This document shows positions 2 to 7,804 of a stretch of DNA of 22,249 bases, piece by piece; position 1 is the stretch's first letter; the number at the start of each line of letters is the position of its first letter. The stretch is from IMG/VR virus record IMGVR_UViG_3300013114_000366, positions 1 through 22,249 of that record, one strand, 5' to 3'. The position numbers were made by a program, and so were the translations under genes. Origin of the DNA: a virus. The notes below the pieces were generated by a model. The model did not search any database, was not told the DNA's origin, and saw only the letters and a program-made list of their open reading frames with translations.

Positions 2-253
2 ATAGCTGAATACGGCTGCGTTGTTTGCCGCAAATATTTTAAGGTCCATTCCCCCGCTGAAGTTCATCACATCGATGGAAAAACCAAGCCTGGAGCGCAT
101 TTGGAAACAATTCCTTTGTGCTACAGACATCATAGAGAAGGAGTCGATAATGACCAACTCACATCCCGACACCCATACAAGCGAAGATTTGAAGAGCGAT
201 ATGGGACAGAGGTTTCCTTATGGAAATTCTGCAAAGACGAACTTGAGACCTGA
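2..253 (+). CDS. Ref-like HNH nuclease, 3' part only
   Basis: Reading frame open from the left edge to a TGA at 251-253; the start codon lies outside the window. The 83 visible residues contain a CVVC zinc-type pair, a VHHIDG histidine pair, then PLCYRHH and a C-terminal KRRFEERYGTE segment. This order matches the C-terminal zinc/HNH domain of Ref proteins (phage P1 Ref, a RecA-dependent nuclease) and related phage HNH proteins. It is therefore probably a recombination-associated endonuclease; the family assignment is inference from motif order. The next gene starts inside it at 150, in another frame, so the two are probably translated in a coupled way. A general HNH protein from a NinG-like group is the main alternative. 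Confidence 0.72.
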   Translation: MAEYGCVVCRKYFKVHSPAEVHHIDGKTKPGAHLETIPLCYRHHREGVDNDQLTSRHPYKRRFEERYGTEVSLWKFCKDELET

Positions 254-1105: not shown

Positions 1106-1376
1106 AGAGTTTCGGCAGATCGTAAAAAATGCGGCGGGAAAAGCAGATTACCCCTCATGCATTGCTTATCTGGATGAGAAGCTACCAGCAGAAATGATGG
1201 ACCTAGCCCGTCACACGCTTCCTTATTACCTACCACGGGTAATCGTGGAATTGCCCGACAAAGCAGCAAGAAGAAAAGCTATCGAAAGCATCCCAGATGT
1301 TGCTGATCCTGAACATACCAAGGAATTTGTAAAGATGGGTGTACAAAAACTATGGAAAGCTAATGTTCAAAGATGA
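1095..1376 (+). CDS. Hypothetical protein, 93 aa
   Basis: GTG start at 1095, with GAGG at 1084-1087 seven bases upstream; it overlaps the preceding nuclease stop and the following nuclease start. Predicted mostly helical (REFRQIVKNAAGK, PAEMMDLARHTLPYYLP, DKAARRKAIESIP), basic, soluble. I do not recognise a family. Its position between two PD-(D/E)XK genes suggests a role in the same DNA-metabolism cassette, which is inference from context only. One copy of a GGCGGGAAAA repeat found four times in the window lies inside it at 1133-1154. Confidence 0.68.
   Translation: MKPREFRQIVKNAAGKADYPSCIAYLDEKLPAEMMDLARHTLPYYLPRVIVELPDKAARRKAIESIPDVADPEHTKEFVKMGVQKLWKANVQR
1133..1154 (+). repeat. GGCGGGAAAA repeat, copy A
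   Basis: GGCGGGAAAAGCAGATTACC followed by CC, inside the 93-aa gene. Same orientation as three other copies in the window. Confidence 0.4.
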
Positions 1377-1773
1377 TTTACATCGAGGTCAGATGGTGGA
1401 GCAGGAATTCTTAGATAGACTGCTGCCAGCTTTCCGCGATGCCTACCGGATCTTCGGCAAGGATAGCAGAGCCGACATTGTTGTTCCTGAGCTGAACATA
1501 CTGATCGAGGTCAAGTATGACCCTGCTAGTTCAGATACTGGCAACATCGTCATCGAGTACTACCATAATAAACCTTCCGCTCTCACCGTCACAGCTGCTG
1601 ATTATTGGCTTATCAGCACGGGAGATGAAGAGCTATGGGTTACACCTAAAGGGCTGTATGAGCTGATAATCGAACTGGGACTGGACCCCGTCAGAATTCA
1701 TGGTCCAGGGGATACTCATGCCAAGTGGGTATTCCTGATTCCCATTTCGCATATTCGGAGGGTTTCTGCGTGA
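1363..1773 (+). CDS. PD-(D/E)XK nuclease-like protein, second copy of the fold
   Basis: 136 residues from ATG 1363; an in-frame GTG at 1339 would add eight residues. GGAAAG at 1354-1359 lies just before the ATG, so I prefer 1363. Motifs: SRADIVV (D38), ILIEVKYD (E49, K51), then GNIVIEYY, KPSALTVTAADYW, the continuation seen in phage PD-(D/E)XK proteins. It is not a duplicate of the 698-1105 nuclease: spacing and flanking residues differ. Likely soluble metal-dependent nuclease or a nuclease-derived accessory protein; target unknown. The TGA stop overlaps the GTG start of the following zinc-ribbon gene. Confidence 0.7.
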   Translation: MFKDDLHRGQMVEQEFLDRLLPAFRDAYRIFGKDSRADIVVPELNILIEVKYDPASSDTGNIVIEYYHNKPSALTVTAADYWLISTGDEELWVTPKGLYELIIELGLDPVRIHGPGDTHAKWVFLIPISHIRRVSA

Positions 1774-1874
1774 TCTGCCCTTTTTGCAGTCATGAACACG
1801 ATAACGAGGGCGATAAATACGGTTGCCCAAATTGCCTGGGTGATCCTGATTGGGAGGAGCCGAATGAGATGTGA
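1770..1874 (+). CDS. Tiny zinc-ribbon protein, 34 aa
   Basis: GTG start at 1770 overlapping the previous stop (GTGA); the stop is TGA 1872-1874. CGGAGGG at 1756-1762 provides a strong ribosome site at good spacing. The peptide starts MICPFCSHEH, then has CPNC at residues 19-22: two CxxC knuckles, the classic four-cysteine zinc ribbon, followed by an acidic tail. It may bind nucleic acid or act as an accessory to the nucleases upstream. It overlaps the next gene by 11 bases. At 34 residues it would be missed by most length cut-offs. Confidence 0.62.
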   Translation: MICPFCSHEHDNEGDKYGCPNCLGDPDWEEPNEM

Positions 1875-2097
1875 CACTAGAGTCACCTACTATATTCCCC
1901 GTGGATATGATTACGCTGAAACAAGCGTGAGCTGCGGAGGAACGGACTGGTACGGTGAGCAGAGATTCTGCGATAACTGCTTGGCAAAGGGAGCCGCTCA
2001 AAGCGCAGCCGATATTGCCGACAATGATTGGTTAAAAAGTGCTGGGATGCCTCCTCCCAATCTGGTGGAGGTGGCGGGAGTTGAACCAAACACCTAA
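1864..2097 (+). CDS. Hypothetical cysteine-containing protein, 77 aa
   Basis: Start ATG 1864, with GGAGGAG at 1853-1859 just upstream and an 11-base overlap with the zinc-ribbon gene. The frame is open further upstream to 1792, but that part overlaps the zinc ribbon. It has Cys residues in MRCDTR, SCGGTDW and RFCDNC, so a zinc site is plausible. Family not recognised. The last dozen codons (LVEVAGVEPNT) are written by a tmRNA-like attachment core at 2063-2087, so its C-terminus would change on site-specific recombination. Confidence 0.6.
   Translation: MRCDTRVTYYIPRGYDYAETSVSCGGTDWYGEQRFCDNCLAKGAAQSAADIADNDWLKSAGMPPPNLVEVAGVEPNT
2063..2087 (-). other. Putative attachment-site core matching the 3' end of a tmRNA gene (ssrA)
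   Basis: Read on the minus strand, these 25 bases contain the T-loop and 3' T-stem TTCAACTCCCGCC followed by a 3' acceptor strand ending CTCCACCA. From memory this differs at one base from the 3' end of Escherichia coli ssrA. The 5' half of the T stem is absent: upstream on that strand is TTTGG instead of the GCGGG needed for pairing. No acceptor 5' strand follows, so this is not a working RNA gene. A 3'-terminal tRNA/tmRNA fragment of this size is the usual attP core of temperate phages and islands that use ssrA. No integrase is nearby. Confidence 0.7.
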
Positions 2098-2137
2098 ACT
2101 ATTAATATATATGGATTTAATGTATTAAATTTCGGCT

Positions 2138-2157
2138 AATGTACCGATAAATGTACC
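2138..2157 (+). repeat. Direct repeat AATGTACC x2 beside the attachment core
   Basis: AATGTACC occurs at 2138-2145 and again at 2150-2157, twelve bases apart. It lies in an AT-rich stretch about 50 bases from the putative core. Tandem short repeats at this distance are typical of integrase arm sites or of sites for an excision factor; they could equally be operators for the 2182 gene. The function is inference from position. Confidence 0.4.
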
Positions 2158-2181: not shown

Positions 2182-2514
2182 ATGGCAGTTATAGTTGATA
2201 ACCATTATGGAGTGGGCAGGAGATGCAGGAGATGGGAGGAAGAGATGAAGATGAGGGGGGATTTTCTACCGTCTCAGCATTATAAGGCGAATGAGATACT
2301 CGATTTTAAACTCGACATGGATAACGAGGATACCATCTATCGTCATCGTGCGTCTTTTAATACACGTCTTCAAAAAATAGATATTGTTGGCACTGATCTC
2401 CACCGAATTATCAGAGGTTGCGTTGAAGACTATTTTTTCAGGAGAATACTGGCTAAATATATCGTTCAGCTAGATCACAAAGAGGGGGGGTTGAGTCCAC
2501 CCCCTCTGACTTAG
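2182..2514 (+). CDS. Hypothetical protein, 110 aa
   Basis: ATG 2182 has an excellent ribosome site (AGGAG 2169-2173, eight bases upstream). No family recognised. The N-terminal 30 residues are basic and rich in Arg, Trp and Glu (GRRCRRWEEEMKMRG); the remainder is mixed helix/strand with RIIRGCVEDYFFRRILAKYIV near the end. It stands alone between the attachment core and the end of the leftward operon and is convergent with the latter. Its position next to an att core makes an excision or regulatory role possible, but nothing in the sequence shows that. The last codons overlap a GC-rich hairpin at 2481-2507. Confidence 0.55.
   Translation: MAVIVDNHYGVGRRCRRWEEEMKMRGDFLPSQHYKANEILDFKLDMDNEDTIYRHRASFNTRLQKIDIVGTDLHRIIRGCVEDYFFRRILAKYIVQLDHKEGGLSPPPLT
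2481..2507. terminator. GC-rich hairpin between convergent genes
   Basis: AGAGGGGG at 2481-2488 pairs perfectly with CCCCCTCT at 2500-2507, and GG/CC inside can extend the stem. It sits at the end of the + strand 2182 gene, 50 bases from the end of the leftward operon, the right place for a bidirectional terminator. There is no U-run on either side, so factor-independent termination is doubtful. Confidence 0.35.
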
Positions 2515-4698: not shown

Positions 4699-4770
4699 TT
4701 TGTTGATGTGATCTGCCATCATCAGGCAAGAGGAAATCACCCTCCTGCGACACCCCGTAGGGCGTTTCGG

Positions 4771-4896
4771 CTACTCGCAGCAATTTGCTGGGTGATGCTT
4801 GTCACTACGATAGTCGTGACCGCATGTGCAAAAATTGCGTAAGTCTGAATCGTCGTAATCCTCATAATCTATAAAGTCATCCCAATCTGGTTCCAT
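4771..4896 (-). CDS. Small Asp/Cys/His-rich protein, 41 aa
   Basis: Start ATG 4896 with AAGGAG six bases upstream, inside a copy of the AACCAAGGA leader; TAG at 4771-4773. The first 18 residues are strongly acidic (MEPDWDDFIDYEDYDDSD); the second half has FCTCGHDY, KHH and NCC, giving four cysteines and several histidines that could bind one zinc ion. No family known. An acidic head with a metal-binding tail could mimic DNA or act as a small inhibitor, but that is speculation. It is too short for usual length cut-offs. Confidence 0.55.
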   Translation of the reverse strand: MEPDWDDFIDYEDYDDSDLRNFCTCGHDYRSDKHHPANCCE

Positions 4897-4968: not shown

Positions 4969-5163
4969 CTATCTGTCTCGCTGAACGAATGCCTCATAGT
5001 GATTGATCGCAATTTCAAGGTATCCCTTCCAATGTGCCATGACTCGACCGCTGCTAGAGTCAGCGCTAATGGAATGATCTCCCGTAGGCGAACCCGTGAA
5101 ATGAACACGATCACCACGCAGCGTTGCTAACAATTCCACCCCATTTCCCAGCTCGTACCTCAT
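4969..5163 (-). CDS. Hypothetical protein, 64 aa
   Basis: ATG 5163 overlaps the stop of the ArdC-like gene as ATGA and has GGAGG upstream within that gene's last codons. The protein looks beta-rich at first (MRYELGNGVELLATLRGDRVHFTG), then a helix near the end (LEIAINHYEAFVQ). No recognised family. Direct translational coupling to the ArdC-like gene suggests a linked function, which cannot be specified. Confidence 0.6.
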   Translation of the reverse strand: MRYELGNGVELLATLRGDRVHFTGSPTGDHSISADSSSGRVMAHWKGYLEIAINHYEAFVQRDR

Positions 5164-6020
5164 GCCGCCACCTCCTCTGCTGCTTGGAATGAGGCGATCA
5201 GGTCAACGGCTTTTTGTGCCGCTGCCGCAGCGGTGAAGATCAAGCGCTTGTCATTCTCCAACGCCCGTAACCAACTCTGCATATACTGGATGTGGTCTGC
5301 GCGAGGCTGGACGCTGATCCCTAAGTGTGCACACTGCATCGCTGCCCCGATTTCTGCGACCAGCTCCTCAGCTGCATATTTGGCATCACCGAACTTGGCG
5401 TGATTGATCCGGTCCAGGCGTTTCTTGCAACCTGTCCAGTGGGTTAGCTCATGGAAAGCGGTGCTGTAATAGCATTCAGTTGCCGTGCTGGTTTCGGTAG
5501 CCTTAAATGACTCAGGGCAGGGCATGCTGATGGTGTCGGTTGAAGGCGTATAAGAAGCCTTTCCGGCGCTGTTGAATGTAACGGTGGCTCCAGTAGCCTT
5601 GATCCAGGCTTCAGCAGCAGCGTGGATCTCAACGTCACTGGTGGCTTCCTTTACTTCGGGCGCTTCCCATCCGTCAACCTGATCGGCTGCAAAAACGGTG
5701 CTGTATCGGAGGAGCGGAAAACTGCTTTTTTCGCCCTGCTTGTTTTCTTTTTCCAGCATCTTGAAGAAAACAATCCGGACCCCTTTAGCGCCTTTGCGTA
5801 CTTGTGCGCCCTTGCTCTGCCACTGCTTATAGCTGGCAAAGTAGGTCTGCCCAGTCATTGCGAGAATCAGGGTGTTGATGCCCCTGTACTCATTGCCCGT
5901 CGAGGCATTCGTTGGCATGCCGCCAGCTAATGAGCCGAACGGTTTAAGCCAGTTGCCAGCGTCTTCCTGGATAGCTTCCGCGATCTGATCAGTGACTTGT
6001 TGATAGATGTCTATTTTCAT
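5160..6020 (-). CDS. ArdC-like antirestriction protein: ssDNA-binding domain plus zincin metallopeptidase
   Basis: 286 residues. N-terminal domain (about 1-115) fits ArdC_N (DUF1738): DIYQQVTDQIAEAI, NWLKPF, NEYRGINTLILA, YKQWQSKGAQVRKGAKG. C-terminal domain (about 125-286) is a zincin-like peptidase with HELTH at 190-194 as the HExxH metal site and AAEELVAEIGAA (217-227) supplying the third ligand. Known ArdC proteins bind single-stranded DNA and protect entering DNA from restriction; the peptidase target is unknown here. It lies in the same leftward operon as the cytosine methyltransferase, which supports an anti-restriction role. The start at 6020 is preceded by the AACCAAGGAAGGTAAAAC leader. 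The length is typical for the family. Confidence 0.9.
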   Translation of the reverse strand: MKIDIYQQVTDQIAEAIQEDAGNWLKPFGSLAGGMPTNASTGNEYRGINTLILAMTGQTYFASYKQWQSKGAQVRKGAKGVRIVFFKMLEKENKQGEKSSFPLLRYSTVFAADQVDGWEAPEVKEATSDVEIHAAAEAWIKATGATVTFNSAGKASYTPSTDTISMPCPESFKATETSTATECYYSTAFHELTHWTGCKKRLDRINHAKFGDAKYAAEELVAEIGAAMQCAHLGISVQPRADHIQYMQSWLRALENDKRLIFTAAAAAQKAVDLIASFQAAEEVAA

Positions 6021-6462: not shown

Positions 6463-6481
6463 GTTTTACCTTCCTTGGTTA
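6463..6481 (-). promoter_or_regulatory. Recurrent translation leader, copy 4 (122-aa gene)
   Basis: Reads TAACCAAGGAAGGTAAAAC before ATG 6462. Its first TAA is the stop codon of the methyltransferase, so gene end and leader are fused. Confidence 0.55.
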
Positions 6482-7804
6482 GCTGGCTTGTGCCAGATTG
6501 GTGAATAGCGCAAGCGCCAGGTTGTAGGGTTGCCGGAAATCTACCGACTGACCCAGAATCTCGTGCGCCGTAGTCTTGACCTGTCCCTCGATAAGGCGTT
6601 CAGGAATCCCTTTGATCCGCGCATGCTCTACTGGGCTGAACAGTCGCTCTTGCCCCTTCTCGTTGACAATGAACGGTTCAGTGCTGCGCTTTTTTGAATA
6701 GAATCGCCCGATGGTCCCGCAGCGGTCCTCAGTGCCAACTAGCAGCTGGCGCTTGAATCCTTTGCCAGCGGCTTTGTCCCGCGCTGCTTTAACATGAAGG
6801 TGCTTATTGCTTGACCATTTTTCGACGGTCTGGTTTGGATCGAGAATCTCAGAAATGCACTTTCGAGCCTTCTTTAAGACAGGCAGTTGTAGCTGCTTAG
6901 GGGCGAGTCCTTCGCTCACTGCAACCATCCAATACCTTTCGCGGTTTTCAAGCGTCCCAGTGTGGGCTTGGTTCAAACATTGCTCGAAGATCCGGTATCC
7001 CGTTCTTCGCAATTCAGCGGTCAGCAGCTGGTATATGGGAGAACCCATTGCCTCCGTCACGTTCTCACTGATCAGGACGGCTGGGTTGGCTGACTTGATG
7101 GCATTCATCACGCCGAATAGGGCGGTCCCTGAGTGCTCTTCGCTGGTCATCTTGTGCTTGCTCTTTCCAGCTTTTGAGAATCCAGCACACGGCATGGAGA
7201 AGGACAGAATGTCAACGTCCGTAAACAGCCTTGGATGGATTTCTTCAACACTCCCGATTAAGAACTGGGTCTGGTCGTCGATGGCAAGGCAATTTTGCCC
7301 AGCTGATTCTATATATTTAGATTCCATCTCAGCGACCCAAGCGACTCTTGACCTGAGTCCAGCCTTCTCACCCGCCATGGCGATCGCCTCAGTAGAGATG
7401 CCGCCGCCCGTGAACATGGATGCTTCCAATAGGCGACCAGCTGCTTTTCGCTGTCGAAATTTCTGCTCCCGCATGATCTGACTGACTGACTCATGATGCT
7501 GCTGAATCATTATGATGCCGTCAGACAGGACCACTTGAATTTTAGAATTGGCGGGAAAAACAGATTCCACCCTCCGCCCCAGCAAGTCGATTATTGGGCG
7601 ATCTTGCCCATTACGCTTGGCAGCGCTGACCTTGCGATCACCGTGCTTATCTAGCGTAAGGGTGATGCAGTGATTGTCTGGCTGAAAGTCAGCTATATAG
7701 AGTGCATCGGATACGAACCCGCACTGCTGTAACTTCTGACCTTCAAGCCAAAGCCGAACACCCCTTGGTGTTTTCTTCGTCGCGGTATAGCTTGTTTGTC
7801 TCAT
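6479..7804 (-). CDS. DNA (cytosine-5) methyltransferase with N-terminal extension
   Basis: 441 residues. Catalytic motifs in order: motif I MFTGGGIS (130-137, a variant of F-x-G-x-G), motif IV SMPCAGFS with catalytic C206, motif VI SENV (246-249), motif VIII NRERYW (287-292), motif IX region FSPVEHARIKGIP (389-401) and motif X GQSVD (418-422). It should transfer methyl from S-adenosylmethionine to cytosine C5, masking phage DNA from host restriction. No cognate endonuclease is adjacent, so it looks like an orphan phage enzyme. The region between VIII and IX is short, so target specificity is unclear. Residues 10-105 form a separate N-terminal domain beginning RGVRLWLEGQKLQQCGF, which resembles SymE/AbrB-type beta-barrel domains. 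It is the first gene of the leftward operon. Confidence 0.9.
   Translation of the reverse strand: MRQTSYTATKKTPRGVRLWLEGQKLQQCGFVSDALYIADFQPDNHCITLTLDKHGDRKVSAAKRNGQDRPIIDLLGRRVESVFPANSKIQVVLSDGIIMIQQHHESVSQIMREQKFRQRKAAGRLLEASMFTGGGISTEAIAMAGEKAGLRSRVAWVAEMESKYIESAGQNCLAIDDQTQFLIGSVEEIHPRLFTDVDILSFSMPCAGFSKAGKSKHKMTSEEHSGTALFGVMNAIKSANPAVLISENVTEAMGSPIYQLLTAELRRTGYRIFEQCLNQAHTGTLENRERYWMVAVSEGLAPKQLQLPVLKKARKCISEILDPNQTVEKWSSNKHLHVKAARDKAAGKGFKRQLLVGTEDRCGTIGRFYSKKRSTEPFIVNEKGQERLFSPVEHARIKGIPERLIEGQVKTTAHEILGQSVDFRQPYNLALALFTNLAQAS
7550..7572 (+). repeat. GGCGGGAAAA repeat, copy C
   Basis: GGCGGGAAAAACAGATTCCA followed by CCC, inside the methyltransferase gene (encodes VESVFPA on the minus strand). 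Confidence 0.55.

Follow-up and report, generated by a model that had tools for sequence, protein, structure and literature searches.

Attachment sites normally travel with their integrases. Why, then, should the 3′ end of a tmRNA gene (ssrA) lie among the genes of a phage, with no integrase in sight? This question was raised by an earlier note on the DNA analyzed here (the window), which is an entire 22,249-bp linear IMG/VR entry and probably a fragment of a phage genome. The note offered two answers: the site could be an attP whose integrase is encoded elsewhere, or an att junction where two elements are stacked within a single ssrA gene, such that the left 2 kb would belong to a different element. 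We lean toward a third answer, an orphan half attP.

An ssrA 3′-end core at the end of a phage gene

Two overlapping features define the site:

2063–2087, minus strand: ssrA 3′-end core, an exact 25-mer that is restricted elsewhere to ssrA ends or att junctions
1864–2097, plus strand: cysteine-rich ORF of 77 amino acids, whose last ~12 codons span the core and extend into the start of the P′ arm described below

The 25-mer TGGTGGAGGTGGCGGGAGTTGAACC occupies positions 2063–2087, and its minus strand reads GGTTCAACTCCCGCCACCTCCACCA, the 3′ end of ssrA including CCA. Specifically, it corresponds to the last 25 nucleotides of the tmRNA gene: the CCA, the 3′ strand of the acceptor stem, the 3′ half of the T stem and the T loop. 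It differs by one base from the ssrA of E. coli (L340). Shuffling of the window predicts 0 copies by chance, and the record holds a single copy; the second copy for which the earlier note suggested a search is absent.

Elsewhere, the 25-mer marks ssrA almost without exception. It is present in 32 IMG/VR stretches including the window, and the other 31 copies lie at an ssrA end or at an att junction at ssrA, many of them with an ARAGORN tmRNA call; the exception is L016, in which the contig stops one base past the core. Among 398 Pseudomonadota genomes, 16 carry the sequence, at 17 places that are mostly intact tmRNA genes. ARAGORN calls a tmRNA at most of these places, and the remainder read on as ssrA or att junctions. 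Both collections uphold the assignment to a proteobacterial ssrA 3′ end, and the single difference from E. coli holds as well. The core was also correctly described as a fragment with a broken T stem located at the end of a phage gene: the 5′ half of the stem is reduced to GG (GCGGG in ssrA), neither ARAGORN nor Rfam detects a tRNA or tmRNA gene in the window, and the core overlaps the final codons of ORF 1864–2097.

In the functional attP of a tDNA-integrating phage, a fragment exactly reproduces the 3′ end of the host tRNA or tmRNA gene (PMC4383910), and the window core shows such an identity. Judging from where the identity ends, the core would use the T-loop sublocation as defined in that work.

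Both flanks of the core belong to one temperate phage family

The genes surrounding the core bear directly on whether two elements meet here. The relevant features are:

2–253, plus strand: RecA-dependent nuclease (Ref-like) of the left module, assigned by PF16786 and synteny
1369–1773, plus strand: p1369, conserved in the phage family and located left of the insert (phrog_13596; 192 IMG/VR relatives)
1774–2165 (right edge approximate), no strand: additional block; relatives have p1369 directly next to p2182 or p3416
2182–2514, plus strand: p2182, a gene of the phage family located right of the insert, with 42–43% homologs at the same place in L266 and L216
9821–11404, plus strand: large terminase (TerL), the family marker, with relatives in IMG/VR

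TerL has 157 relatives, the best 80 of which are 75–80% identical, and TerL, portal and MCP all have many marine IMG/VR relatives at ~70–80% identity; isolates are distant. The genes on the left (RecA-dependent nuclease, PDDEXK nuclease, p1095 and p1369) and those on the right (p2182, p3416, ArdC, p7924, TerS, TerL, portal and MCP) form one continuous order in many relatives (at least 8). Both flanks of the core belong to one temperate phage family. Because this order is conserved, the left 2 kb are not a different element, as the earlier note had suspected, and its observation of phage genes on both sides stands.

The synteny also weighs heavily against the stacking of two elements in a single ssrA gene. 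The site does have an att-hybrid form, with foreign DNA on the left and a P′ arm on the right, and stacking of this kind exists in E. coli, where ssrA prophages (L341–L343) lie beside another island. However, the flanks do not come from different elements, and p1369 and p2182 are direct neighbors in L266. We consider a stacked junction very improbable.

What distinguishes the window is the DNA between these neighbors. In 33 relatives, the gap from p1369 to the convergent p3416 ranges from −31 to 548 bp. p2182 directly follows p1369 in L266, in L216 its homolog comes immediately after the preceding gene, and the protein start MAV[IK]V is common to the window and these relatives. Since p1369 abuts the next genes in relatives, the core-bearing block of ~390 bp is extra in the window. 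It contains a small Cys-rich ORF (1769–1873), ORF 1864–2097, the core and a 70-bp AT-rich tail. No such block is seen in any relative compared, and the protein encoded at 1864–2097 has no homologs in IMG/VR or among phages.

An insert that lacks relatives, in a contig assembled from a metagenome, might be suspected to be an assembly chimera joining phage DNA to DNA of an ssrA island. We find this quite improbable, given that native phage genes lie on both sides in native order, gene starts and stops overlap right up to the core, and the fragment is only ~100 bp long.

The block also carries a 15-nt inverted repeat (14/15 matches) at 1845–1859 and 2051–2065, with 191 nt between its halves. The left half coincides with the Shine-Dalgarno region of ORF 1864, and the complementary half immediately precedes the core; the repeat could hide the ribosome site, or it could be due to chance. 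Further to the right, a type II hammerhead ribozyme (4707–4772, minus strand; 39.6 bits) scores above the Rfam gathering score. A second one is present in a comparable region of L128 (4590–4659; 44.7 bits), and none is found in five other relatives. An ArdC-like anti-restriction protein (5160–6020, minus strand) is encoded beside a DNA methyltransferase (6479–7804, minus strand) that has few relatives within the phage family.

The right side of the core resembles the P′ arm of an attP

To the right of the T-loop sequence, the window has the layout of one arm of a phage attachment site:

2070–2094, no strand: putative crossover unit, inverted core-type sites around a 7-bp overlap
2088–2157, plus strand: P′ arm of attP, from alignment with the P′ arm of vB_AbaSI_1 (L484) and the layout of L411
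2138–2145, plus strand: arm-type site 1, AATGTACC, paired as in L411
2150–2157, plus strand: arm-type site 2, AATGTACC

The core-type sites are GGTGGCGGG at 2070–2078 and CCAAACACC at 2086–2094, which form an imperfect inverted pair: the reverse complement of the latter, GGTGTTTGG, is alike to the former at 6/9 positions. Between them lies the 7-bp AGTTGAA (2079–2085), the ssrA T loop. We infer from this arrangement that 2070–2094 is the crossover unit, with AGTTGAA as its overlap. The P′ arm then proceeds in order through a phage-side half-site, an AT-rich stretch, TTTCGGC and tandem arm-type sites. The phage-side half-site matches those of vB_AbaSI_1 and the E. coli ssrA prophages at 14–15 of 20 bases (P 0.0008–0.003 by shuffling), and alignment of the whole arm with that of vB_AbaSI_1 gives P ~0.005, also by shuffling. 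The two arm-type sites, AATGTACC-N4-AATGTACC, stand 12 bp apart at 2138–2157; a pair of 8-mers like this has a local chance of ~0.01. Thus, a phage-side half-site and a P′ arm with arm-type repeats are present with moderate statistical support, where the arm-site match consists of two 8-mers.

The closest comparison is with the attP of the Acinetobacter phage vB_AbaSI_1 (PP359530.1). The ssrA cores of both have the same orientation, the phage-side half-sites are similar (AAAAATCCTAAA vs AAACACCTAAA), and each site has an AT-rich P′ arm with TTTCGGC and tandem arm repeats that is followed by a phage gene. Their arm sequences differ, being GTATAAC in vB_AbaSI_1 and AATGTACC in the window. More importantly, vB_AbaSI_1 encodes its integrase (Arm-DNA-bind_3) 173 bp to the left of the core and has intergenic DNA with GTATAAC repeats directly to the left, whereas a coding gene abuts the window core. 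The E. coli ssrA prophages likewise follow the core with (C)AAACACC.AAA, but they are chromosomal and carry an Arm-DNA-bind_2 integrase within ~150 bp of it. The IMG/VR contig L411 has AATGTACCN4AATGTACC pairs with the same 12-bp spacing beside a reversed ssrA-like fragment; unlike the window, it belongs to an unrelated phage with several arm pairs and its own Arm-DNA-bind_2 integrase.

The AATGTACC pair was considered as a general marker and rejected. Most of its IMG/VR matches are coding repeats with a 4-codon period, and the 12-bp spacing alone proves nothing because only a minority of the pairs adjoin integrases. The combination of the core with TGTACC was absent from 48 genomes of the ssrA-bearing class. 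Junction flanks in L003, L005 and L007 resemble the window P′ arm weakly or not at all, and four Pseudomonadota with the same ssrA end (L346, L357, L359 and L360) have other ssrA junctions without TGTACC arms alongside.

The plus-strand transcript of the phage operon would be perfectly complementary to the last 25 nt of tmRNA, and as an antisense RNA it could block trans-translation. Nevertheless, the adjoining P′ arm accounts for the core without any RNA role, the fold is unremarkable (z −0.47 on the minus strand), and the sequence is not conserved in relatives. We regard an antisense function as extremely improbable.

The left side of the core lacks a P arm

A complete tDNA attP spans ~250 bp overall and has a P arm on the opposite side of the core. 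In the window, the left edge of the core directly adjoins coding sequence, and no AATGTACC-like site with up to one mismatch is found at 1400–2062, ~650 bp to the left. Because there is no arm-like site on the left and the core meets coding sequence there, the window site is a core plus a P′ arm, which is half an attP. The cognate integrase is as a rule adjacent on the element, and no tyrosine integrase (PF00589) is found in the 22,249-bp record; the claim that no integrase is in sight thus extends to the whole record.

The phage family has its own integration system

If the window phage is temperate, then where is its integrase? Searches with tblastn place an integrase 7.5–9.3 kb to the left of p1369 in 32/32 informative loci, meaning those that carry p1369 and extend at least 7.9 kb to its left, and Pfam also detects the family integrases. 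All eight of those tested lack an Arm-DNA-binding domain. Of the 32 integrase loci, 20 adjoin a tRNA 3′ end that starts in the anticodon arm, as for tRNA-Gly(GCC) and tRNA-Thr(CGT), and three further loci have an anticodon arm alone. Many of these cores are bordered by IHF-like sites on both sides. The window phage should carry the family integrase and attP ~8 kb to the left, beyond the end of the contig.

Beside the integrases of L206, L324 and L326, two IHF-like sites enclose only the anticodon arm of tRNA-Thr(CGT), TTGCTTCGTAAGCAA in one or the other orientation, which may represent a minimal anticodon-loop attP. In L229, a distant relative on a Nitrospinaceae MAG contig with no integrase seen in the 11.8 kb covered, the 3′-end fragment GCGGGTTCAAGTCCCGCCACCTCCACCA (183–217, plus strand) has a p7924-like gene on one side and, on the other, an XRE regulator beside TerS; perhaps it is a second detached tDNA or ssrA fragment.

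The window site and the family attP have in common that each is a tDNA-fragment attP in the same phage family. They differ in the target gene (tRNA-Gly, -Thr, -Ala and -Pro of the anticodon-loop type in relatives), in the crossover sublocation, and in the adjacent non-Arm integrase and flanking IHF-like sites of the relatives. The window core is thus no tRNA anticodon-arm core with IHF-like sites and an adjoining non-Arm integrase, and no IHF-like site was found near it. The tRNA targets of two relatives were present in 0 of 32 genomes that share the ssrA end. A search for hosts via prophages in GTDB genomes returned nothing but short, misbinned-looking MAG contigs.

These data allow the main rival to an orphan half-site to be weighed, namely that the site is a working but detached attP, by which the phage integrates into host ssrA with an integrase encoded kilobases away off the left contig end. 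Part of this proposal, as first made in the earlier note, has gained ground: phages of this family are temperate, and their integrase gene would fall off the left end of the contig. In addition, the core is intact, the P′ arm layout matches that of real ssrA phages, and some Pseudomonadota have exactly the ssrA end of the window. The remainder is weakened. The left arm is absent, relatives have their attP beside their own integrase in the form of a tRNA anticodon loop flanked by IHF-like sites, the arm repeats fit another integrase class than the Arm-less one of the family, and in vB_AbaSI_1 the integrase is 173 bp from the core. We therefore consider a working attP unlikely, though a serious contender. 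The ~7 kb to the left that would hold the integrase region, beyond the contig, might contain a swapped integrase of the matching class.

Proposed origin as an orphan half attP

We propose instead, with modest confidence, that the window site is a scar: an orphan half attP that remains from an integration module foreign to the phage and specific for ssrA. A scar is most likely because only the core and the right arm remain. Both would derive from the attP of a tyrosine integrase that targets ssrA and has an Arm DNA-binding domain, and the half-site would have become lodged between the native p1369 and p2182 genes of a temperate marine phage that uses another integrase type. The original integrase would bind inverted core-type sites on both sides of the 7 bp forming the ssrA T loop, grip the tandem AATGTACC arm sites, and cross over within those 7 bp, such that insertion would restore the 3′ end of host ssrA.

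The half-site could have been acquired by either of two routes. An element of the ssrA type may have inserted at the end of gene 1864–2097 and later been deleted. Alternatively, the phage may have gained the fragment by recombining with a prophage or island integrated in ssrA. We infer the inactivity of the window site, its crossover position and its route of acquisition. Against a relic stands the undecayed core, which matches at 25/25 positions and could mean that the site is in use; an intact core would be either recent or still useful.

A use of this kind is conceivable if the phage keeps the half-site as a separate second attP for ssrA, on which an integrase supplied by a co-resident satellite or ssrA element acts in trans. 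We judge this improbable. If true, the half attP would provide the phage or a satellite with an alternative docking place besides the tRNA attP of the phage.

Implications for integrating elements

Attachment sites made of tDNA fragments and integrases with Arm domains are already well known. A phage that relies on another integration system and yet harbors an undecayed orphan half-site in its early operon would be an uncommon variant on this theme. The window also carries a caution: a fragment of ssrA or of a tRNA gene in a viral contig is not always the attP of the virus that carries it. The analysis further yields a mapped family of uncultured marine temperate phages, in which the integrase has a conserved place and many tRNAs serve as targets. 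Under the orphan half-site reading, an undecayed, one-armed ssrA core without an integrase would show directly that integrating elements undergo exchange or nesting.
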